Source: Candidatus Poribacteria bacterium (GTDB lineage: Bacteria > Poribacteria > WGA-4E > WGA-3G). Taken from it: a DNA stretch of 64,000 nucleotides. Below the pieces are notes generated by a model that made no database searches, was not told the DNA's origin, and was given only the letters and a program-made list of their open reading frames with translations. This document shows positions 10,100 to 37,257 of the stretch, one piece after another. The stretch lies in NCBI GenBank assembly GCA_028820845.1, contig JAPPII010000101.1:151591-215590 (forward strand). The letters run 5' to 3'. A program made the translations under genes and the position numbers. Each line of letters starts with the position of its first letter. The first letter of the stretch is position 1.

Positions 10100-10260
10100 C
10101 CTGTTAGGCTGTGCTGCGTATATCTTCTGTAGCATAACCTTTTAGGTTGTGCCTCTATTGTAGCATAGTTTCCTGTTAGGCTGTGCTGCGTATATCTTCT
10201 GTAGCATAACCTTTTAGGTTGTGCCTCTATTGTAGCATAGTTTCCTGTTAGGCTGTGCCT
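10094..10260. repeat. 72-bp tandem hairpin array between convergent genes
   Basis: Two apparently identical 72-bp copies (10100-10171, 10172-10243) and the start of a third. Each copy carries a GCATAACCT-TTT-AGGTTGTGC hairpin and a CCTGTTAGGCTGTGC half hairpin. The array supplies the TAG of the NAPRT gene (10097-10099) and, on the other strand, the TAA of the AAA ATPase gene (10248-10250). Serial stem-loops between converging genes could act as a two-way terminator. A single related hairpin lies at 6187-6211. Confidence 0.85.
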
Positions 10261-16961: not shown

Positions 16962-19049
16962 CTATTTCAGCCGTTTTGGGTGTTCTTTAAGAAAACGCAT
17001 GACTGTGTCTGGATCGGTGGCTTGAAGGTTGCCAAGCGTACTGGCTTCTTCTATGAGTGCTGTCATTTGGACAGGGTTGTCGGTGAGTGTGTCTTCCGCC
17101 CTTTCGTAAAAATAGGCTGCCTGTGCTTTTTGATCGTGCTTCTCATTTATAGCAGCGAGATAGATGTAAGCAGCGGCGAGACGTGGAGATTCAGTACGGT
17201 TCTGAATGAACTCTTCAAAAGCGAAACGTGCCTCATTGTAACGTCCATCGTCGTAATGGACGCGTCCGATCCGAAACTGTGCTCTATCCGAGAAACTATC
17301 CTTGTGTCCACCCGCAAGATACCTATCACGTTCTGGATAACCTATAGTAGTTTTATAGGCTTGTAGTGCCTCGCTATAGCGGTTCAGTTTTCTGTACAGC
17401 TCGCCCAACTGGAAATTTGCCATCATCGCTTGCAAGGTATCCGGATATGATGCAATAACCCTTTTATAAGTCTCAAGTGCCTCGTTAGGATTAGAGAGGC
17501 GTTCAGCGTAAAGAAGCCCACTACGATAGAGGGCTTCGGCGGCGTATGTTAAATCGGGATAATGCTTCGCTACCGTATGATATGCCTCAGTTGCCTTCGG
17601 GTAGTCTTGTAACTGTCGCTCATAGATGGTCCCGATTTGCAATTGCGCCCGTGCCGCCTCAATAGGTGGTAAGGCGTTGTTATGGAGCTGCTCGCGCAGA
17701 TTTTCAATGGCTGCAAGGTGTTGGAGTGTCGAAAGTTGTTCGGATGCCAGTTTTGCTTGGGGTGTATGCGGTACGGTGGCAACGAGGTTTCGGACGATGC
17801 TTAATGCCTCATTAAAATCTCTATCCGCCCGTGCTTTGTCCAACCGTTCTAATTCCGTTTCCGACATCTGTTCTGCAAGATTCTCGATTTTCCTATGAAT
17901 TTGGGTTCTCACTTCAGACACACTCTTATCGTGCATTGAAATCTGTCCTAAATATGCGGGGTCGAGTTGTGGCAGATACGCATGAAGGAATGTTTCAAAA
18001 GCCGCTATCGCTTTCGGATAGTTCAAGGCTTTTTCGTGGCAAACCCCTGTCCAATAGATGACAGCGTGCATATTCCAGAAGTTCGGATATTTCTGTTTGA
18101 GTTTCTCAAACACAGGGATTGCCAGTGAGTATTTTTCAGTAGTCCGGTGGATATTTGCAATCTGATAGAGTGCTTCCGCTGCGAAATTGCTCGTGGGATA
18201 ATCGTTCACAACCTTTCTGTAGGTCGCAATCGCTAAGCCAGATTGGTTGAGAACGGTATGCCTTAAATGCGCAATACGCCATCTCGCTTCTGGTGCCATG
18301 ACGGTATCTGGGTGCGCTGCTAACAGTTCCTCGTACTTGACAATTGCTTTTGAAGGTTGATTGAGTTGCGACTGGTTCCGGTAAAGTTCGGCTATCTGGA
18401 ACTGGGCAACGGCAGCAAGCGGCGTGCCACGGTGCTGAATCATTACACGCTGCTGCTCCCTGAGATCAGCGAGTGCCGTGTTAATATCCCGAATCTTTTG
18501 TAAACCCGTTTTATGCACGAAGTGGGAGGCTGGCGCGAGTTTGATTAGCCTGTCGTAGGTCTGAATCGCATCCTGGTAGTTACCCATGCGACTGTAGACA
18601 TCCCCTTTCTTAATGATAGCCAGAAAGAGCTCTTCAGGAGTGAGACCATTTTTTTCAAACTGCAGAATTTTGTCATAAGCCGCAGCTGCGTGATTGTATT
18701 GATGCGTGTAGTTGTAGTAGATTTCGCCAATCTGATAGTAGCACCAACTTTTTACCGCAATATCCTTGGTAGATTCTGCAAGGGCTTCGAGTTTATGAAG
18801 TGCTTGGGTATACTCTCCCGCTTCAATTAAGACGTGCACTTCTTCAAAGTGCGCAACCGCTGCAAGCGGAAGGAAGAACATTATTAGCAGTACCTGTGAG
18901 ATAAGGGTTCTCAGCCGTCTATTGTCAGGCTTCGGACAAGAACAATTTGTAAAAGTCTTCCACCGCTCGGTGTACGCTAAGAGGCGGTGAATTGTTACAG
19001 GAAGACCTCTTAACTGACAACTGATAACTGATAACCGACAACTATTCAT
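16962..19049 (-). CDS. Secreted tetratricopeptide-repeat protein of an ECF sigma operon
   Basis: 695 residues from ATG 19049, which has AAGGGA six bases upstream and lies two bases after the anti-sigma stop. TPR units run from about residue 75 to the end (for example YQIGEIYYNYTHQYNHAAAAY and ALYRSGLLYAERLSNPNEAL), like the YbgF/BamD-type periplasmic TPR proteins. The signal-like segment TLISQVLLIMFFLPLAAVA begins only at about residue 49. The preceding 45 residues are encoded by a dispersed repeat (18911-19045) inserted in frame after the start codon. It is third in the operon after sigma and anti-sigma, suggesting an envelope stress or transport role. Whether export still works is unclear. 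Confidence 0.8.
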   Translation of the reverse strand: MNSCRLSVISCQLRGLPVTIHRLLAYTERWKTFTNCSCPKPDNRRLRTLISQVLLIMFFLPLAAVAHFEEVHVLIEAGEYTQALHKLEALAESTKDIAVKSWCYYQIGEIYYNYTHQYNHAAAAYDKILQFEKNGLTPEELFLAIIKKGDVYSRMGNYQDAIQTYDRLIKLAPASHFVHKTGLQKIRDINTALADLREQQRVMIQHRGTPLAAVAQFQIAELYRNQSQLNQPSKAIVKYEELLAAHPDTVMAPEARWRIAHLRHTVLNQSGLAIATYRKVVNDYPTSNFAAEALYQIANIHRTTEKYSLAIPVFEKLKQKYPNFWNMHAVIYWTGVCHEKALNYPKAIAAFETFLHAYLPQLDPAYLGQISMHDKSVSEVRTQIHRKIENLAEQMSETELERLDKARADRDFNEALSIVRNLVATVPHTPQAKLASEQLSTLQHLAAIENLREQLHNNALPPIEAARAQLQIGTIYERQLQDYPKATEAYHTVAKHYPDLTYAAEALYRSGLLYAERLSNPNEALETYKRVIASYPDTLQAMMANFQLGELYRKLNRYSEALQAYKTTIGYPERDRYLAGGHKDSFSDRAQFRIGRVHYDDGRYNEARFAFEEFIQNRTESPRLAAAYIYLAAINEKHDQKAQAAYFYERAEDTLTDNPVQMTALIEEASTLGNLQATDPDTVMRFLKEHPKRLK
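18911..19045. repeat. Dispersed GTTATCGG/GTCAG-word repeat, copy inside the TPR gene
   Basis: Runs from CAGCCGTC... to AACTGATAACTGATAACCG, with an internal GGTGTACGCTAAGAGGCGGTG core followed by CCTCTTAACT. The same core is recognisable in the intergenic copy at 46034-46203. This copy is translated as the N-terminal leader of the TPR protein. Confidence 0.75.
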
Positions 19050-19051
19050 TG

Positions 19052-19675
19052 CTAATATCCCTTGGCAGCTACCTGAGTTGTGTTGTTGACCTTTAAACTT
19101 TGCGCCAGCTTCATCCAATCGGTACCTTGTGCCTGTTCTTGGACCCGTTGGAGGCGGCTTTCTGTGTCCCACGCGTCATTTCGGAGGTGATATGTAATCA
19201 TAGCATCCTCCAAATTCCGCTGGATGTCCTGTTGAAGATATTGCTCAATCCGGGCATCAGCCGATTCTGATTCGCTTAATTGCAACTCCACTTTCGGCTG
19301 CCAGAACTCGCCAACTAAGACAACGGCAGTAATCAAAGCGATCAGAGCAGTGCTTGCGGCAGCGGTTTTGTGCCATTGAAAAAGGGCTTGAATGTTGGAT
19401 AAAAATGATCGAATACGCGAAGGGGCGGATTCCTCTTGTGAGGCGGCGAGACGTTTGTACACATTCATCTCAATATCCTGAAGTGCTGCTTCAGGTAAAG
19501 TTACTTCGTTCTCTGCCATATCCGTCAATTTTAGTAAGGTAGTGAAGGACTCAACCGCTTTGCTACAGTCTGAACATTTCTTCAAATGCTGTTCAAACGA
19601 TTCTGCTTCTTTACTCGACAAAAGTTTAGACGCATAATCAATAGCTTGTCCTTCAGACTTATTACACTTAGGCAT
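19052..19675 (-). CDS. Anti-sigma factor with zinc-finger (zf-HC2) domain
   Basis: 207 residues. H30-x3-C34-x2-C37 (QHLKKCSDC) with Cys4 nearby is the ZAS-type anti-sigma zinc-binding motif. A single membrane segment, TAAASTALIALITAVVLVG (about 105-124), follows, then an extracytoplasmic helical part of about 80 residues. It should hold the neighbouring ECF sigma factor inactive at the inner membrane until a signal arrives. The gene starts 14 bases after the sigma gene stop, with AAAGGAGGG before its ATG. Two bases separate its stop from the next start, so the three genes are one operon. Confidence 0.9.
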   Translation of the reverse strand: MPKCNKSEGQAIDYASKLLSSKEAESFEQHLKKCSDCSKAVESFTTLLKLTDMAENEVTLPEAALQDIEMNVYKRLAASQEESAPSRIRSFLSNIQALFQWHKTAAASTALIALITAVVLVGEFWQPKVELQLSESESADARIEQYLQQDIQRNLEDAMITYHLRNDAWDTESRLQRVQEQAQGTDWMKLAQSLKVNNTTQVAAKGY

Positions 19676-19689
19676 AAATGTTCCCTCCT

Positions 19690-20271
19690 TTAGAGTTCGT
19701 TGTTTTCCCGGAGTGGGTGCAGCAGCGTTTGCAACCGTTTCATCGCACGGTGTAAATGGATTTTCACTGTACCCTCTGCCATATTAAGGGTTTCCGCAAC
19801 TTCTTTGATTTGGAGACCTTCATATCGATTTAAAATAAATACTGCTTTCTGTTTCGGGGAGAGTTGATCGACGGCTTCACGAATAATGCGTCCGAGCTCC
19901 TTCTCTTCCACTTCTTTTACAGGATTGCTGTATTGGTCGGTGGCTACAAGATTCTCTTCTGGAATTTCCAGATCCTCTAACGCATAGACAGGGTGACGCG
20001 CTTTCGCACGGTGATAGTCGATGACAAGATTGGCGGCTATTTTGTAAAGCCATGTTGAGAATTTAGCTTTCGGCTGCCAATTCTCCAACGCGCGATACGC
20101 CTTGAAGAAGACTTCGATAGTAATATCTTCAGCGTCTTCATAATTTCTTACCGAGCGCAGGAGATACGAGAAGATTTTCGATTTATAACGCTTCATCAAC
20201 TCATCAAATGCGTTTTGGCGACCGGCTTGAAACTGGGCAACTAACATTTCATCATCAATCAACTTATCCAT
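19690..20271 (-). CDS. RNA polymerase ECF sigma factor (SigW/RpoE type)
   Basis: 193 residues. Region 2 (AFDELMKRYKSKIFSYLLR, DAEDITIEVFFKAYRAL, FSTWLYKIAANLVIDYHR) and region 4 (LSPKQKAVFILNRYEGL, IKEVAETLNMAEGTVKIHLH) are complete, with no region 1.1 or 3, as in group 4 sigma factors. It directs RNA polymerase to a small regulon, commonly envelope stress, and often its own operon. The anti-sigma gene follows immediately. The targets cannot be read from this window. The promoter in front looks sigma-70-like rather than ECF-like, so basal expression may be housekeeping. Confidence 0.95.
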   Translation of the reverse strand: MDKLIDDEMLVAQFQAGRQNAFDELMKRYKSKIFSYLLRSVRNYEDAEDITIEVFFKAYRALENWQPKAKFSTWLYKIAANLVIDYHRAKARHPVYALEDLEIPEENLVATDQYSNPVKEVEEKELGRIIREAVDQLSPKQKAVFILNRYEGLQIKEVAETLNMAEGTVKIHLHRAMKRLQTLLHPLRENNEL

Positions 20272-20367
20272 AATTCCCGACTTTCGATATCGGTTGGAAG
20301 TTTTGTCCGTATCAAAACAATGGACAAAATTGAACTATCGCTTCCTTAAACGGAAACGATGTAAATA

Positions 20368-20397
20368 AGTTTACAAAATTAGTGATTAATTTGTCAA
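20368..20397 (-). promoter_or_regulatory. Sigma-70-type promoter for the ECF sigma operon
   Basis: On the minus strand, TTGACA, an 18-base spacer and TAAACT, ending about 97 bases before the sigma ATG. Confidence 0.55.
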
Positions 20398-20409
20398 GCA
20401 GCTTTTGAC

Positions 20410-20438
20410 TTGATTTTCTAATACTATTGGTTTAAAAT
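20410..20438 (+). promoter_or_regulatory. Possible promoter for the DUF3500 gene
   Basis: TTGATT, 17 bases, TAAAAT on the plus strand, about 80 bases before the GTG start. A fragment of the GTCAG-word repeat (20471-20500) lies in the presumed leader. Confidence 0.35.
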
Positions 20439-20470
20439 AAAACGAAGAATAGTTATTGATTTTCAGTATT

Positions 20471-20500
20471 TAACTGACATCTGACGGCTGATAACTAACT
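20471..20500. repeat. Fragment of the GTTATCGG/GTCAG-word repeat
   Basis: TAACTGACATCTGACGGCTG followed by ATAACTAAC, the same words that end the copies at 19045 and 46203. No opposite end was found, so it is a solo end. Confidence 0.5.
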
Positions 20501-20520
20501 ACTATATGGAGGTATTTTTT

Positions 20521-21552
20521 GTGGCACATACGCATACTGATTCTGAATTAAAACCTTTGGTCATTCCTGCTTCTGAGACAGCGGCGCGGATGGCACAAGC
20601 GGCAGGGAACTTCCTGGATACGCTCACACCACCCCTACGTCAGCAAGCAGCACTTCCGTTTGATGGAAACGAACGCTTCCGTTGGCACTACATCCCCATT
20701 GAGATGTGGGAACGCAAAGGTGTATCTCTCAAAGAGTTAAACGAGAAGCAACAGGAAGCAGCCTTCGCGCTTATGGAGAGCGGTTTGAGTGCAAAAGGCT
20801 ATCAGAAGGCCCGCGCTATTATTAACTTAGAGACAACGCTCGGTGAGATTGAACGGGCTGCCGGTGAAGCCCGGCTCGTCCGTGATCCATCCTTATACTT
20901 CTTCACGGTCTTTGGTGATCCGACGGGGAACGGCGCGTGGGGATGGCGGGCTGAAGGACACCATGTCTCTCTCAACTTCACTGTTGTCAATCGTGAATTG
21001 GTTTCTCCTAACCCGTCTTTCTTCGGCTCAAATCCGGCTGAAGTGCCACAAGGGCAGAAAAAAGGACTCAGAGTCCTTTCGGCTGAGGAGGACATCGCAC
21101 GTAAACTCCTTACAAGCCTAAATAATGCACAGAAGGCACAAACCATTATCAATGCAGACGCACCCTCCGATATTTTAACGCGCGATGTCCCTAAAGTTGA
21201 GTTTGAGGCTGTTGAGGGGTTAGCCGCGGAAGCTATGGAGACACAGCAGCGAGAACTGCTGATGGAACTTGTCCACGAATACATTGATCGGCTGCCTGAT
21301 GAGATTGCTCAGATTGAGCGGCGCAAACTCCGCGAAGGGAACGTCAGCGATATCCATTTCGCATGGGCAGGGGATGAAGTACCGAAGACTCCGCACTATT
21401 ATAGGCTACACGGGCCGTTCTTCTTTGTGGAATACGATAACACCCAGAACAATGCAAACCACATTCACTCTGTGTGGCGGCACATCGCAGACGATTTTGG
21501 TGTCGACCTGCTTCGGTTGCACTACCACAAATCTGACCATCACGATCATTAG
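20521..21552 (+). CDS. DUF3500 family protein
   Basis: 343 residues from GTG 20521. The upstream ATG at 20506 overlaps the GGAGG (20508-20512), which is correctly spaced for the GTG, so I prefer the GTG. The sequence fits DUF3500: AAGNFLDTLTPPLRQQAALPF, then RWHYIPIEMWERKGV, YFFTVFGDP, GWRAEGHHVSLNFTVV, and a C-terminal HYYRLHGPFFFVEYDN with HIHSVWR and DFGVDLL. Conserved histidines in GHHVSLN and HIHS suggest a metal- or substrate-binding site, but no activity is known for the family. No signal peptide. It stands alone, divergent from the sigma operon. Confidence 0.85.
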   Translation: MAHTHTDSELKPLVIPASETAARMAQAAGNFLDTLTPPLRQQAALPFDGNERFRWHYIPIEMWERKGVSLKELNEKQQEAAFALMESGLSAKGYQKARAIINLETTLGEIERAAGEARLVRDPSLYFFTVFGDPTGNGAWGWRAEGHHVSLNFTVVNRELVSPNPSFFGSNPAEVPQGQKKGLRVLSAEEDIARKLLTSLNNAQKAQTIINADAPSDILTRDVPKVEFEAVEGLAAEAMETQQRELLMELVHEYIDRLPDEIAQIERRKLREGNVSDIHFAWAGDEVPKTPHYYRLHGPFFFVEYDNTQNNANHIHSVWRHIADDFGVDLLRLHYHKSDHHDH

Positions 21553-21555
21553 GAA

Positions 21556-21712
21556 GCGGCTATCAGCAGTCAGGGCGGTTTCTCCGAAACCTTTCAGTAG
21601 TCAGCGAAAAGATCGTTGTGGCGGTTATGAACATTTGTCATTGCTACAACGTGTTACTGACCGCTGAAAGCCTGCGTAGCAGGCGACCTGACTGCTGACC
21701 GCTAATCACTAA
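21556..21712. repeat. Dispersed GTCAG-word repeat, intergenic copy
   Basis: Ends GCGGCTATCAGCAGTCAGG and CCTGACTGCTGACCGC are inverted relative to each other. The right end also supplies the last codons and TAG stop of the CBM9-like gene (21702-21704). Confidence 0.6.
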
Positions 21713-22574
21713 TCGCCTTCAAGTTCCCCCAGGTCGTCGTTAACTTGTCAGCGGCTTTGACAGCGAGTTCCTCACTGGTGAGAACGACTAAACCCGTATG
21801 TTCCGAGTTCTTTCCGAAGACAATAGAGTGAGTATACCAACCACTCCAGCCTTTCTGTCCGTCCTGTCCAGCACCTTTGTCGCCATCGTTGACACAAATA
21901 CCCAGACCAAACTCTAATCCATCGCTAAATTTTTTGCCTTTCACTTGCAACTCTTCCGCCGTGAATCTGAGTTCGTAGTAGGTTTTCTTTTCTGTTTCGT
22001 CGCGGATAACGGCGATATCATCGCCGGGGACAATGCCGCCACCCCCCGGATTTTCATTGAGTGCGTTTGGGAGAATGTCCTTCCCTTTATCGTCTAAGCC
22101 GATATTGTACAGGAACATTTGATGTCCAGCAGTCCGTTTGCCACTCATTTCAAAGGCGAGTTGTGCACCATCACCGTTCCACGCAGGAGCGGCAGCGTGC
22201 TCATGCTCATCATCGGTGACAATCAGCGCAAGATAGACAGCACTAGCATCCCAAGTAATCATGAAGCAGGTCTCGTGATCATCGGGACCCGTCCATTTTC
22301 CACCATTATGTGTTTCAAAAACGTTTCCAGAGTATTCAACCCCACAAAAAGGTTTCCCATCCGTACCTGTGACGGCTTCAAGCATACCGTCCCATTCGTT
22401 AAGGTCTCCGTCAATTGTGACATCAATCCCTACCAGTGCATTATAGACATCGTGTGTTTTGCTGCGCCACTGGGCATCTGCTGTGATGTTTGTAAGCAGC
22501 GCGAATGCGGTTGTCAGTATCCAAATTTTGCCCATACGCGGCAAAATTTGTCTTTGCTTTACATTATTGTTCAT
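21702..22574 (-). CDS. Secreted CBM9-like carbohydrate-binding domain protein
   Basis: 290 residues. A signal peptide (KIWILTTAFALLTNITADA, about 16-34) is followed by a single domain with IDVTIDGDLNEWDG, FMITWDASAVYLALIVTDD, WNGDGAQLAFEMSG and YYELRFTAEELQ. This is the pattern of CBM9/DOMON-type sugar- or heme-binding domains found on secreted xylanases and in cellobiose dehydrogenases. No catalytic domain is attached. The C-terminus KLTTTWGNLK is shared with two other exported proteins here. It is last in a three-gene operon after the PQQ propeller, with AAGGAG before the ATG. The final residues come from a repeat. Confidence 0.8.
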   Translation of the reverse strand: MNNNVKQRQILPRMGKIWILTTAFALLTNITADAQWRSKTHDVYNALVGIDVTIDGDLNEWDGMLEAVTGTDGKPFCGVEYSGNVFETHNGGKWTGPDDHETCFMITWDASAVYLALIVTDDEHEHAAAPAWNGDGAQLAFEMSGKRTAGHQMFLYNIGLDDKGKDILPNALNENPGGGGIVPGDDIAVIRDETEKKTYYELRFTAEELQVKGKKFSDGLEFGLGICVNDGDKGAGQDGQKGWSGWYTHSIVFGKNSEHTGLVVLTSEELAVKAADKLTTTWGNLKAISD

Positions 22575-22589
22575 TTTTCTTTCTCCTTG

Positions 22590-24248
22590 TTAGCGGTTAC
22601 CAATAGTTCTGTCCGATACATCACCACCCAAACAAAAAATATACCGGTCGCTGCTTCCGATATACAACAATCCGTTGGCAACCGCAGGTGATGAATAGAA
22701 TTCTATATTTCGTGTGACAGTTCTCGTATCAAACTCCCACTGCATCTCTCCGCTACCAGCAGAGAGGGCGTAGATATATCCATTTTTTGTCGCCGCATAG
22801 ACGACTTCCGGCGTTACAGCCGGTGAGGAGACAACCGGTCCACCGAGATCCGTTTTCCAGTTAAGTTCCCCGTCCATTGCCCCAAGGCAATAGACATATC
22901 CATCGCGCGAACCAAAGATAACATAGCCATCTTGAACAGCGATCGCCGTGAGAACTGCGTCTTCCGCTTCGTGCTCCCATACGGTGTCCCCTGTTTCTAC
23001 GTTAAGCGCGACGACTTTGCCCGCGGGTATGGGGGCACTCTCGGAGAAGTTTCCTCTTCCGAGTCCAAAAAAGACGATATCTTCGTATACACTCGGGCTT
23101 CCCCACACGGGATAAGGCATCTGTTTTGACCAAACTTCAGTGCCTGTCTCTGCATTGACCGCAAGAATCTGGTAACCATCATAGCCTGTCCCGAAATAGA
23201 CTATTCCCTTATGCACAACGGGCGACATGTCAGCATGAACCCCACCGTAGTGCCAAATCTGTTGACCTTCTAAGGCATCAATGCAATAAACACCATCACC
23301 ACCGGCTGTAAAATAAAGTTTCCCTTGACTGATAAATGGTGTTGACTCCACGTGACTCGCTGTTGCAAAGGACCAGATAAGATCACCAGTGTTTGCGTCA
23401 AGACACCGGAGATGACAATTGCTGTCTTGATGGTAGCCTTCCCCGATGTAGACTCTGCCGCCGGCAACGGCAGGGGGCGAGAAAATTGGGATACGCGAAC
23501 TATGCCGCCAGACGACCTTCTGTGATTCCGTATCAATGCAGTACGTCGCACCGCCGAGAGAGAAAATCGAACCGTGTGAAGAACCTATATAAAGCCGATT
23601 TCCGACAACTGCTGGTGAGGAAGAGAAGTCAACCGCCATCGCCTCTTCGTCCCTGAACACCCATGCCAGTGTGCCGTGTGTTGGTCCCGGAAGTCCGTCT
23701 ACGTGTCCTGTCCGATTTTTTTCACCTCGGAAAGTTGACCATGCTCTGCTAACGCTTGTGTTTCCTGCACTCGTGTTCTGGACATTTGCTTCAGGGGTGA
23801 GAGTTGTCCAATTTCGTGCCGTGTCAATCAATAAGTAAGTTCCCCAAACAAACCCAACCAGAATAACGACGCTGAAGATAGTCGCAGTAACCTTATGTGC
23901 AGCAGCAAAATCGCGGCACTTGTAAAAAAACATTTTAACTGTATCTCTGGCAAACACGAGTCCTGTCAGCAGTGCCACCCCAACGAAAGCAAGAATTTGC
24001 GGGACGATACTCAGCAACGCCGTCAGGGGTCCGAGAAGCTGCGGAATAACAGCGTAGGCAGGGCTTGCTGAGGCAAGAAAAACAAAAGAAAAGATTGCTG
24101 TTAGCAGCAACTTTGTATTCGCTTTCGATGGGCTATCGGCTTTCGGGGCGTTCCGCTGCGCTCCACTCTCAGCGGTTAGGAACTGACGGCTAACTACTGA
24201 TTGCTGACGGCTGACGGCTGACAGCCCTTTTAATGCTGCTTTTCTCAT
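22590..24248 (-). CDS. Membrane-anchored PQQ-type beta-propeller protein
   Basis: 552 residues from ATG 24248; the ATG at 24254 touches the ribosome binding site GGGAAGGAG, so the inner one is used. A signal-like segment LLLTAIFSFVFLASASPAYA sits at about 46-65, then two more membrane segments (LAFVGVALLTGLVFA; TATIFSVVILVGFVWGTYLL). From about 180 on come PQQ/quinoprotein-type blades (LYIGSSHGSIFSL, WRHSSRIPIFSPPAVAGGRV, VYCLGAMDGELNWKTDLGGP), as in BamB and quinoprotein alcohol dehydrogenases. Catalytic PQQ/Ca residues were not recognisable, so a structural role is likelier. About 38 residues between KAALK and the signal core come from an inserted repeat. Confidence 0.82.
   Translation of the reverse strand: MRKAALKGLSAVSRQQSVVSRQFLTAESGAQRNAPKADSPSKANTKLLLTAIFSFVFLASASPAYAVIPQLLGPLTALLSIVPQILAFVGVALLTGLVFARDTVKMFFYKCRDFAAAHKVTATIFSVVILVGFVWGTYLLIDTARNWTTLTPEANVQNTSAGNTSVSRAWSTFRGEKNRTGHVDGLPGPTHGTLAWVFRDEEAMAVDFSSSPAVVGNRLYIGSSHGSIFSLGGATYCIDTESQKVVWRHSSRIPIFSPPAVAGGRVYIGEGYHQDSNCHLRCLDANTGDLIWSFATASHVESTPFISQGKLYFTAGGDGVYCIDALEGQQIWHYGGVHADMSPVVHKGIVYFGTGYDGYQILAVNAETGTEVWSKQMPYPVWGSPSVYEDIVFFGLGRGNFSESAPIPAGKVVALNVETGDTVWEHEAEDAVLTAIAVQDGYVIFGSRDGYVYCLGAMDGELNWKTDLGGPVVSSPAVTPEVVYAATKNGYIYALSAGSGEMQWEFDTRTVTRNIEFYSSPAVANGLLYIGSSDRYIFCLGGDVSDRTIGNR
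24131..24228. repeat. Dispersed GTCAG-word repeat, copy inside the PQQ-propeller gene
   Basis: CTGACGGCTGACGGCTGACAG and AACTGACGGCTAACTACTGA words, then an AGCGGAACGCCCCGAAAGCC-type core on the coding strand. It is translated between the positively charged start (MRKAALK) and the hydrophobic core of the signal sequence. Confidence 0.65.
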
Positions 24249-35236: not shown

Positions 35237-35321
35237 GGATGTGGACATGGACAATAGGCCCAACAGATTAAGGCATTATCTCTAACGGCTGACCCATAGC
35301 ATCAGAGAAGAAGGGGTATCA

Positions 35322-36197
35322 ATGTTGTATACAAATCCTTTTCAACAACCCGGGCAGTGGTATCGCGGGAATACACATAGCCACAGTACAGAATCCGATG
35401 GACAACTTTCGATCGGAGATCGGTTTGCTGCATATCGGGACGCAGGCTATGATTTCCTCGTGCTAACCGACCACCGCAAGGTTAACGATGTACAGGCTTA
35501 CACCACACCGGACTTTTTGGCAATATCAGGGAGCGAAGTGCATCCTGATAATCCCTATGGTGGTGATACCTACCACTTCGTCGCCATTAACATACACGAA
35601 CGCATAAACTGCTCGGAAATGCATCCAAACGCAGTGCTTGATGACATTAAGGCACAAGGGGGTGAAGCAGTTTTGTGTCACCCTTATTGGTCAGGACATA
35701 CCATTTTAGATTATCTGCCGTTGCGGGAATATTTCGCTATTGAAGTCTACAACGACAGTTGTGTGGGCATCGGCAAAGAATTTTCAGAACAAGCATGGGA
35801 TGATTTGTTGGATAGAGGCGGACCTGTTCTCGGTATCGCTGCTGATGATTCGCACGGGACAGAAGATGATTGCTTTCACGGATGGATTATGGTCAAGGCG
35901 GAAGAATTGACGCTTGAGAGCATCATGGAATCGCTTCGGACTGGGGCGTTCTATTCTACACTCGGACCTGAAATCAAGGACCTGACGTTAGATGGAAAAG
36001 AATTAACCGTCAAATGTTCGGAAGCACAATCGATTGTTTTTAAAGCGCAGTGCAGTCGTGGGAAGCGGGTCCTACCATCTGAAGGTGAACGCTTGACCGA
36101 GGCGACCTATAGCATTCCAGAAAGTGTGAAATACGTTCGCGTTGAAATAACCGACGAAACCGGCAAGAAAGCTTGGTCGAACCCCTTCTTTTTCTAA
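35322..36197 (+). CDS. CehA/McbA-type PHP-domain metallohydrolase, copy 1
   Basis: 291 residues. NTHSHSTESDGQLS (about 18-31) and VLTDHRKVND are the first metal-binding motifs of the PHP (polymerase and histidinol phosphatase) fold; ISGSEVHPDNP, VLCHPYW and AADDSHGTE are the following ones, giving a full set of His/Asp/Glu ligands. CehA-type members hydrolyse esters or carbamates, others phosphoesters; the substrate here is unknown. GAAGGGG lies before the ATG. No signal peptide. It is followed 184 bases later by a near-identical copy. Confidence 0.88.
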   Translation: MLYTNPFQQPGQWYRGNTHSHSTESDGQLSIGDRFAAYRDAGYDFLVLTDHRKVNDVQAYTTPDFLAISGSEVHPDNPYGGDTYHFVAINIHERINCSEMHPNAVLDDIKAQGGEAVLCHPYWSGHTILDYLPLREYFAIEVYNDSCVGIGKEFSEQAWDDLLDRGGPVLGIAADDSHGTEDDCFHGWIMVKAEELTLESIMESLRTGAFYSTLGPEIKDLTLDGKELTVKCSEAQSIVFKAQCSRGKRVLPSEGERLTEATYSIPESVKYVRVEITDETGKKAWSNPFFF

Positions 36198-36251
36198 GCG
36201 AGTATCTTGGCAGATAAGATTGCCTTTCTACGGGTGTTCCGATTCAATAAT

Positions 36252-36341
36252 AGGACTTACGCACTCCCCCGGTAGGTGCGGTTTCCTAACCGCACCGATT
36301 GCGACAAGATAGACTGAATTCTCTGATTTTGCGTAAGCCCT
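36252..36341. mobile_element. MITE-like element copy 3, with nested palindrome
   Basis: AGGACTTACGCA (36252-36263) is inverted at 36330-36341 with one mismatch. TCAATAA occurs just before and, one base after the right end, again, consistent with a target-site duplication. Inside is GGTGCGGTT-TCCT-AACCGCACC (36275-36296). It lies between the duplicated PHP genes. Confidence 0.75.
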
Positions 36342-36381
36342 GTCAATAACTTAGAAAATCATGAGAGAAGAAGGAGCAGCA

Positions 36382-37257
36382 ATGTTCAATACAAATCCTT
36401 TTCAACAACCCGGGCAGTGGTATCGCGGGAATACACATAGCCACAGTACAGAATCCGATGGACAACTTTCCGTCTCAGATCGGTTCGCTGCATACCGGGA
36501 CGCAGGCTACGATTTCCTCGTGCTAACTGATCACCGCAAGGTTAACGATGTAGGGGCTTACACAACATCCGATTTTTTGGCAATATCGGGGAGCGAGGTG
36601 CATCCTGAAAATCCTTATGGCGGTGGGACGTACCACATCGTCGCTATTAATATACATGAACGCATAAACTGCGCGAAGATGCACCCGAACGCAGTAATTG
36701 ATGATATTAAGTCACAGGGTGGTGAAGCGGTTTTGTGTCATCCGTATTGGTGTGGACATACGATCCTGGATTATCTGCCGTTGCACGGTTATTTCGCCGT
36801 TGAAGTCTATAATGACACCTGTATGGGTATCGGCAAAGGGTTTTCAGAACAGGCGTGGGACGATTTACTGGATAGGGGTGGACCTGTTCTCGGTATCGCT
36901 GCCGATGACGCACACGGGACAGAACACGACTGCTTCCACGGATGGATTATGGTCAAAGCGGAAGAACTGACGCTTGATGGCATCATGGAATCGCTTCGGA
37001 CGGGCGCGTTCTATTCTACGCTTGGACCCGAAATCAAGGACCTGACGTTAGATGGAAAAGAGTTGACCGTCAAATGTTCGGAAGCACAATCAATTGTTTT
37101 TAAAGCGCAGTGCAGTCGTGGCAAGCGAGTTCTACCGGCTGAAGGTGAACGCTTGACCGAGGCGACCTACAGTATTCCGGAAAGTGTGAAATACGTTCGC
37201 GTTGAAATAACCGACGAAACGGGTAAGAAGGCCTGGTCAAACCCTTTCTTTTTCTAA
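36382..37257 (+). CDS. CehA/McbA-type PHP-domain metallohydrolase, copy 2
   Basis: 291 residues from ATG 36382, the position equivalent to copy 1, with GAAGGAG upstream; the ATG at 36361 is in frame but lacks a site. It is nearly identical to copy 1 along its whole length and keeps every metal-ligand motif (THSHST, TDHRKVND, GSEVHPEN, CHPYW, ADDAHGTE). Differences cluster in the middle (IVAINIHERINCAKMHP, GHTILDYLPLHGYFAV). Similar sequence extends about 20 bases upstream and 50 downstream of each gene, so the duplication included flanks. Possibly retained for dosage or a shifted substrate range. Confidence 0.88.
   Translation: MFNTNPFQQPGQWYRGNTHSHSTESDGQLSVSDRFAAYRDAGYDFLVLTDHRKVNDVGAYTTSDFLAISGSEVHPENPYGGGTYHIVAINIHERINCAKMHPNAVIDDIKSQGGEAVLCHPYWCGHTILDYLPLHGYFAVEVYNDTCMGIGKGFSEQAWDDLLDRGGPVLGIAADDAHGTEHDCFHGWIMVKAEELTLDGIMESLRTGAFYSTLGPEIKDLTLDGKELTVKCSEAQSIVFKAQCSRGKRVLPAEGERLTEATYSIPESVKYVRVEITDETGKKAWSNPFFF

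Follow-up and report, generated by a model that had tools for sequence, protein, structure and literature searches.

Two genes for predicted exported proteins in a 64,000-nucleotide window, the whole stretch of DNA analyzed here, each carry a heptad-armed palindromic element between the start codon and the hydrophobic core of the signal sequence, and in both the element is translated in frame. The window lies on contig C101 of a 5.69-Mb Candidatus Poribacteria genome (G000). With a probability of roughly 80%, we take these to be insertions of an element resembling miniature inverted-repeat transposable elements (MITEs) that are tolerated in signal n-regions, combined with a habit of placement next to stop codons, with no selection for the encoded peptide. 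The original prediction, made from the window, had placed the repeats between ATG and hydrophobic core in both genes and described the genes as otherwise intact in appearance. Sequence and translation bore out the former, and open frames with Pfam matches to the domain content of both proteins the latter. The features concerned are as follows (signal peptides were judged by eye and by hydropathy).

16962-19049, minus strand: gene for a TPR-repeat protein, export predicted; 695-codon open frame, Pfam TPR families.
19052-19675, minus strand: upstream anti-sigma-like gene, from the open reading frame (ORF) list; its TAG lies 9 nt ahead of the array in the TPR gene.
18906-19042, minus strand: heptad-armed palindromic element, GTTATCA type; in-frame n-region residues ~3-48 of the TPR protein.
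18852-18893, minus strand: signal hydrophobic core and cleavage region of the TPR protein, VLLIMFFLPLAAVA; core present in all orthologs read.
22590-24248, minus strand: gene for a PQQ/beta-propeller protein, export predicted; 552-codon open frame, PF13360/PF13570.
24146-24226, minus strand: heptad element, GCAGTCA type; in-frame n-region residues ~8-35 of the PQQ protein.
24051-24110, minus strand: signal hydrophobic core and cleavage region of the PQQ protein, LLLTAIFSFVFLASASPAYA; conserved in orthologs.

The TPR gene opens with an ATG (19049-19047) 2 nt past the TAG (19054-19052) of the anti-sigma-like gene. Its element spans ~137 nt, with the heptad array portion at 19042-19014, and is translated in frame as far as RRLRTLISQVLLIMFFLPLAAVA-HFEE; its two arms, GTTGTCGGTTATCAGTTATCAGTTGTCAG and CTGACAATAGACGGCTGAGAAC, are paired in the hairpin fold predicted for it. 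This spot is in the n-region, as had been stated, but it is also the usual stop-adjacent position of the family, the ATG standing directly past the upstream stop. The PQQ gene starts at an ATG (24248-24246) preceded by AAGGAG, a start common to its orthologs. Its element (~81 nt; array 24225-24183) has a core, GGGGCGTTCCGCTGCGCTCC, that recurs in other elements of the genome, and is translated in frame as far as KLLLTAIFSFVFLASASPAYA. Both repeats stand before the hydrophobic core, but the n-regions are longer than originally drawn, with the core beginning at about residue 53 in the TPR protein and about residue 47 in the PQQ protein. Nor is it quite one repeat in both genes: both copies are heptad-armed, but they belong to different subfamilies.

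All relatives compared were Candidatus Poribacteria metagenome-assembled genomes; such relatives are sponge symbionts, and G000 and G060 are two genomes of one species. Comparison with repeat-free orthologs that have the same start context identified both repeats as insertions with the frame kept. The TPR element is present at the same site in G000, G060, G012, G023, and G035; none of the other congeners read has it. The ATG context 2 nt past the TAG is common to the repeat-free orthologs (G029 reads MESQRRFIFLLQVLLIIFF there), the n-region of G025 and G022 is different and shorter, and unrelated palindromes fill it in G017 and G027 (GTCCCGCAAGCCCACACGCGGCTTGCGCC). For the PQQ gene, repeat-free basic n-regions of ~25 residues occur in G029, G035, and more distant congeners, and other repeat stretches occur in G007, G009 (GGAAGAT-type heptads), G001, G033, and G025. 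Across PQQ orthologs, the distance from start to cleavage site ranges from 28 to 87 residues. The G012 and G023 genes were considered as empty sites and rejected, since a 12-nt element end, GCGGAACGCCCC, is all that they retain of the element, which indicates partial deletions.

The comparison of orthologs indicates that translation starts upstream of the repeat. In each ortholog of the TPR gene, the PQQ gene, and a lipoprotein gene on contig C124 (see below), we measured the distance between the conserved ATG and a conserved site 3' of the core. Orthologs keep the start and the core, and the stretch between them varies only in frame: the interval was in frame and open in 13/13 TPR orthologs (4 lengths), 23/23 correctly anchored PQQ orthologs (11 lengths), and 25/25 lipoprotein orthologs (11 lengths). 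The PQQ count omits G005 and G011, where the start anchor was false; their true N-termini (MKRGSLKQ...) are in frame. So many independent length changes, all multiples of three, would be very hard to explain if ribosomes started downstream. The original prediction had also allowed for real starts on a non-ATG codon downstream of the repeat, which would make the repeats an untranslated leader, and a simple gene caller did pick an ATG at 18881 for the TPR gene, while a TTG stands close to the PQQ core. However, the length changes are stop-free multiples of three in every correctly anchored ortholog, dozens in all, the upstream ATG and its context are kept where the repeat is missing, and a downstream start would cost the PQQ protein its basic n-region and the TPR protein half its core. 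We regard a downstream start as highly improbable. When stop-free survival was simulated under neutrality for the TPR insert by itself, the result was not significant (P = 0.21); the frame argument therefore rests on the many in-frame length changes.

A detailed array survey, covering 2.02 Mb or about one third of the genome, added three genes with the repeat between start and core. The two independent insertions in one spot of the original prediction were indeed insertions but an undercount, with five genes now known from this part of the genome and other repeat families elsewhere. The additional genes are the following.

C124: lipoprotein gene; the gene before it runs into its ATG, and the array begins 2 nt past the stop of that gene.
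C92:52593-54197: gene with an apparent signal sequence; the stop of the preceding gene lies inside the repeat (read from the sequence).
C114: sugar-transferase gene, N-terminal membrane segment encoded; element within the N-terminal tail, ahead of the first hydrophobic stretch.

The lipoprotein gene, preceded by what we take from its protein to be dapB, has the element in seven genomes and a short remnant in three; in the remaining genomes it is missing or other insertions are present, and the start context is kept in repeat-free G029 (MSAKSFFRIIVNWVLKQGSRGYFAPIVLLISIPFIFGC). The n-region of the C92 gene has GGAAGAT-type heptads in G007, G001, G002, and G030, and G000 and G060 differ by an in-frame 24-nt change in the heptad array ahead of the signal core. 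The C114 sugar transferase is without the insert in G012 and G023. In other species, unrelated repeat families occupy the same n-region spots. N-regions account for 0.88% of coding residues, yet 5 of ~34 genic elements lie in them (P ~ 1e-5 versus a uniform distribution), and an excess remains without the two originally noted genes (3 of ~32; P ~ 0.003). No clear in-gene N-terminal copy was found in a cytosolic protein in the 2.02 Mb, all three candidates having an ATG just past the repeat. The n-region excess, together with cytosolic candidates that start after the repeat, fits tolerance.

The repeat family itself is abundant and structured. Matches to a degenerate three-heptad pattern (184+209 genome-wide) exceeded those to the reversed pattern (37+36) and were thus above chance. 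Among 221 arrays in the 2.02 Mb, 42 neighboring pairs faced each other and 0 faced apart, with spans of 63-171 nt. Because arrays face each other and never apart, the repeat unit is a palindromic element consisting of a sense arm, a core, and an anti arm. The arms are built of degenerate 7-bp units and fall into two subfamilies, GTTATCA type and GCAGTCA type. Short length, inverted-repeat ends (the 42 facing pairs), and many copies (the pattern excess) are the features of a MITE-like element; no Rfam family matches the region. Exact matches were abundant in every congener genome examined and few or absent in most other genera of the order, suggesting that the element expanded genus-wide.

If the n-region were long and unconstrained by nature, heptamers could have expanded locally in it by slippage, with no mobile element involved. 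This would account for the 24-nt difference in the C92 array between two genomes of one species, and even PQQ orthologs free of the repeat have basic n-regions of ~25 residues. What the inserts hold, however, is complete elements: two arms that face each other and a core that also occurs in intergenic copies elsewhere in the genome. Slippage would not make such a structure. As the origin of the inserts we think slippage unlikely, although it may act later on the arms.

Placement of the arrays was strikingly tight between genes. Most (178 of 221) lay outside predicted genes; inside genes, 32 were in the sense and 11 in the anti orientation. Sense arms had open frames in 456/663 cases and anti arms in 123/663, so that survival of mostly stop-free sense arms explains the sense bias of genic copies. 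Relative to the upstream stop, sense arms began mostly at -8 to +10 nt. Anti arms ended mostly 0-30 nt ahead of the following start codon, a Shine-Dalgarno site usually lying in between; 82 anti arrays were found no more than 150 nt from a start, the majority within 30 nt. Of 31 same-strand gaps holding a full element, 29 had its left arm starting within ~15 nt of the upstream stop; the right arm stopped a little short of the Shine-Dalgarno site or start of the following gene. The stop-to-Shine-Dalgarno gap is where insertion into a compact operon can do no harm to either gene. The window holds one further full copy.

21548-21713, no strand assigned: full GCAGTCA-type element in the normal, intergenic position of the family, an inverted repeat touching both stops of two converging genes, 21552 (+) and 21702 (-).

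Among stops ahead of heptad elements, TAG was over-represented (41/75 versus 483/~1650 genes). In the TPR, C124, and C92 genes, the start codon stands before or right against the stop of the gene upstream, so that an element in the usual stop-adjacent place comes to lie within the n-region; the PQQ and C114 elements lie ~45 nt past the upstream stop. Between the tolerance and selection that the original prediction had offered, the data favor tolerance, but the stop-adjacent habit had been overlooked as a likely cause in three of the five genes.

We propose that MITE-like palindromic elements expanded in this Poribacteria genus mostly by filling stop-to-Shine-Dalgarno gaps. Where the next start overlaps or abuts the stop, the usual placement would land the element between the ATG and the signal core. 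Such insertions would survive because Sec n-regions tolerate changes in length and sequence, needing only positive charge, and insertions that are out of frame, contain stops, or fall in domain interiors would be purged. Export would go on with n-regions of ~45-60 residues, the repeat peptide presumably having no selected function. Judging from the orthologs, long n-regions appear to be tolerated in export, and the first few residues of an export signal may be a safe landing place for selfish DNA. A bolder version, in which n-regions are a preferred and recurrently refilled reservoir for selfish palindromic DNA throughout the genus, with species-specific front ends that change how strongly the proteins are made or exported and so supply variation in export, seems doubtful to us.

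Several observations weigh against tolerated insertion of a mobile element. The enrichment figure leans on a simple gene-caller script and an approximate element count (~34), and the 2.02-Mb sample was picked partly for containing repeats or following known repeat positions. No search for a transposase was made, and neither a transposase nor a target-site duplication nor a clean empty site was identified; mobility is deduced from copy number, structure, and presence or absence among genomes. Between species (G012, G023, and G035), divergence of the TPR insert (window 18906-19049) was 0.08-0.17 versus 0.22-0.60 at fourfold sites of the same gene, i.e., ~2-5x lower, and the changes were almost all transitions. 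A freely drifting insert would not show such low divergence, unless recent recombination had spread it. The mature TPR gene of G035 is ~95-100% identical to that of G025 over most of its length, yet G035 shares the element and core with the G000/G023 group, and its sister G025 is without the element (gene tree from FastTree). A short cross-species recombination tract at the TPR n-region is therefore likely, and recombination between species would lower the divergence of the insert.

Alternatively, the insert could be a selected regulatory element, either an mRNA hairpin just past the start codon or a set of regulator-binding heptads, that tunes translation of exported proteins. Translation tuning has been proposed for TAACTGA repeats ahead of start codons in Beggiatoaceae (PMC4679880). 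The slow, mostly transitional change of the TPR insert relative to fourfold sites would suit such a role, as would its fold, which is better than that of shuffles (z = -2.06), the retention of 95.7% of its pairs over five genomes, and the crowding of anti arms directly 5' of start codons genome-wide. However, covariation gave pair counts that did not surpass the shuffle control, with changes on both sides in one pair only; selection on the structure of the TPR insert is thus possible, but the pair counts add no support beyond shuffles. Close relatives have PQQ and C124 inserts of very different length and sequence, or have lost part of them, and the placement is accounted for by the sole room left between stop and Shine-Dalgarno site. 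We consider a regulatory role improbable. At the protein level, distinct changes in the TPR insert were spread over the codon positions as 11/13/15, and nonsynonymous/synonymous ratios were mostly 0.3-0.8 versus ~0.1 in the mature protein; the insert is not conserved as a peptide, and no amino acid constraint was seen.

Tolerated in-frame insertion has precedents. Rickettsia palindromic elements (RPEs; Ogata et al. 2000, described in PMC2229807 and PMC10969869) resemble the Poribacteria element in being palindromic, ~100-150 bp long, and dispersed, with many intergenic copies and some in frame in conserved genes, where they are apparently tolerated. The Poribacteria element differs in phylum, degenerate-heptad arms, stop-to-start placement, and the set of n-region insertions; the likeness drawn here is one of way of working. 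In-frame insertion in conserved protein genes, as in RPEs, was found here in five N-terminal cases compared with orthologs and in further genic copies. RPEs, which sit in frame in many genes (PMC2229807, PMC10969869), are the best functional parallel. Those further copies lie in frame within large proteins, with peptides such as SSQQSAVSSQQS, or at extreme gene C-termini (...LAISD); their sites in G000 are C22:6748-8063, C10:24918-28944, C123:15258-17046, C13:28807, C13:59237, and C47:30017.

TAACTGA heptamer direct repeats are described in Beggiatoaceae, Cyanobacteria, and Bacteroidetes (MacGregor 2015; PMC4679880). The GTTATCA arm holds TCAGTTA, the reverse complement of TAACTGA, and in these arms TAACTGA-type heptads are mixed with others such as GTTGTCG and GCAGTCA. 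Both the TAACTGA repeats and the Poribacteria anti arms crowd just 5' of start codons in that orientation, as the 82 anti arrays do here. The reverse orientation of the TAACTGA repeats is translatable, and a few of them lie within ORFs (PMC4679880). Unlike them, the Poribacteria element has degenerate units in two facing arms round a core, with one arm after the upstream stop and the other ahead of the following start. PMC4679880 describes no n-region insertions, and Poribacteria did not turn up in a text search of it. In Yersinia and other enterobacteria, peptides of MITEs (YPAL/RU-2, ERIC) are fused in frame with ORFs, including signal peptides (PMC2229807); there the MITE gives part of the hydrophobic signal, whereas the Poribacteria element lies upstream of a pre-existing conserved core.

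Autotransporters with an extended signal peptide region (ESPR) have Sec signal peptides with an n-terminal extension of ~25 residues and still export. ESPRs are conserved sequences with a proposed role. In contrast, the Poribacteria extensions are repeat derived and vary by species; they differ between orthologs, and the proteins are a TPR protein and a PQQ propeller, not type V secreted proteins. Within the limited, open-access literature checked, three features appear to be new: an element whose two arms reach from stop to start, the expansion of this element in a Poribacteria genus, and its recurrence in signal n-regions. Rickettsia already provides examples of selfish DNA in frame inside proteins, but position has seldom been the explanation given; the Poribacteria case offers a simple, testable positional reason, namely, compact operons with overlapping stop and start combined with a tolerant n-region. 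It also provides a natural insertion series on Sec signal peptides, with n-regions of ~8 to ~60 residues on the same proteins. Automatic start calling can clip such N-termini, as when the simple caller missed the TPR start.

Two other repeats were seen in the window: an exact 72-bp tandem duplication at 10100-10243, of a palindrome-like intergenic repeat (CCTGTTAGGCTGTGCTGCG...), and two 300-nt copies, 89% identical and 1060 nt apart, at 35300-36659.

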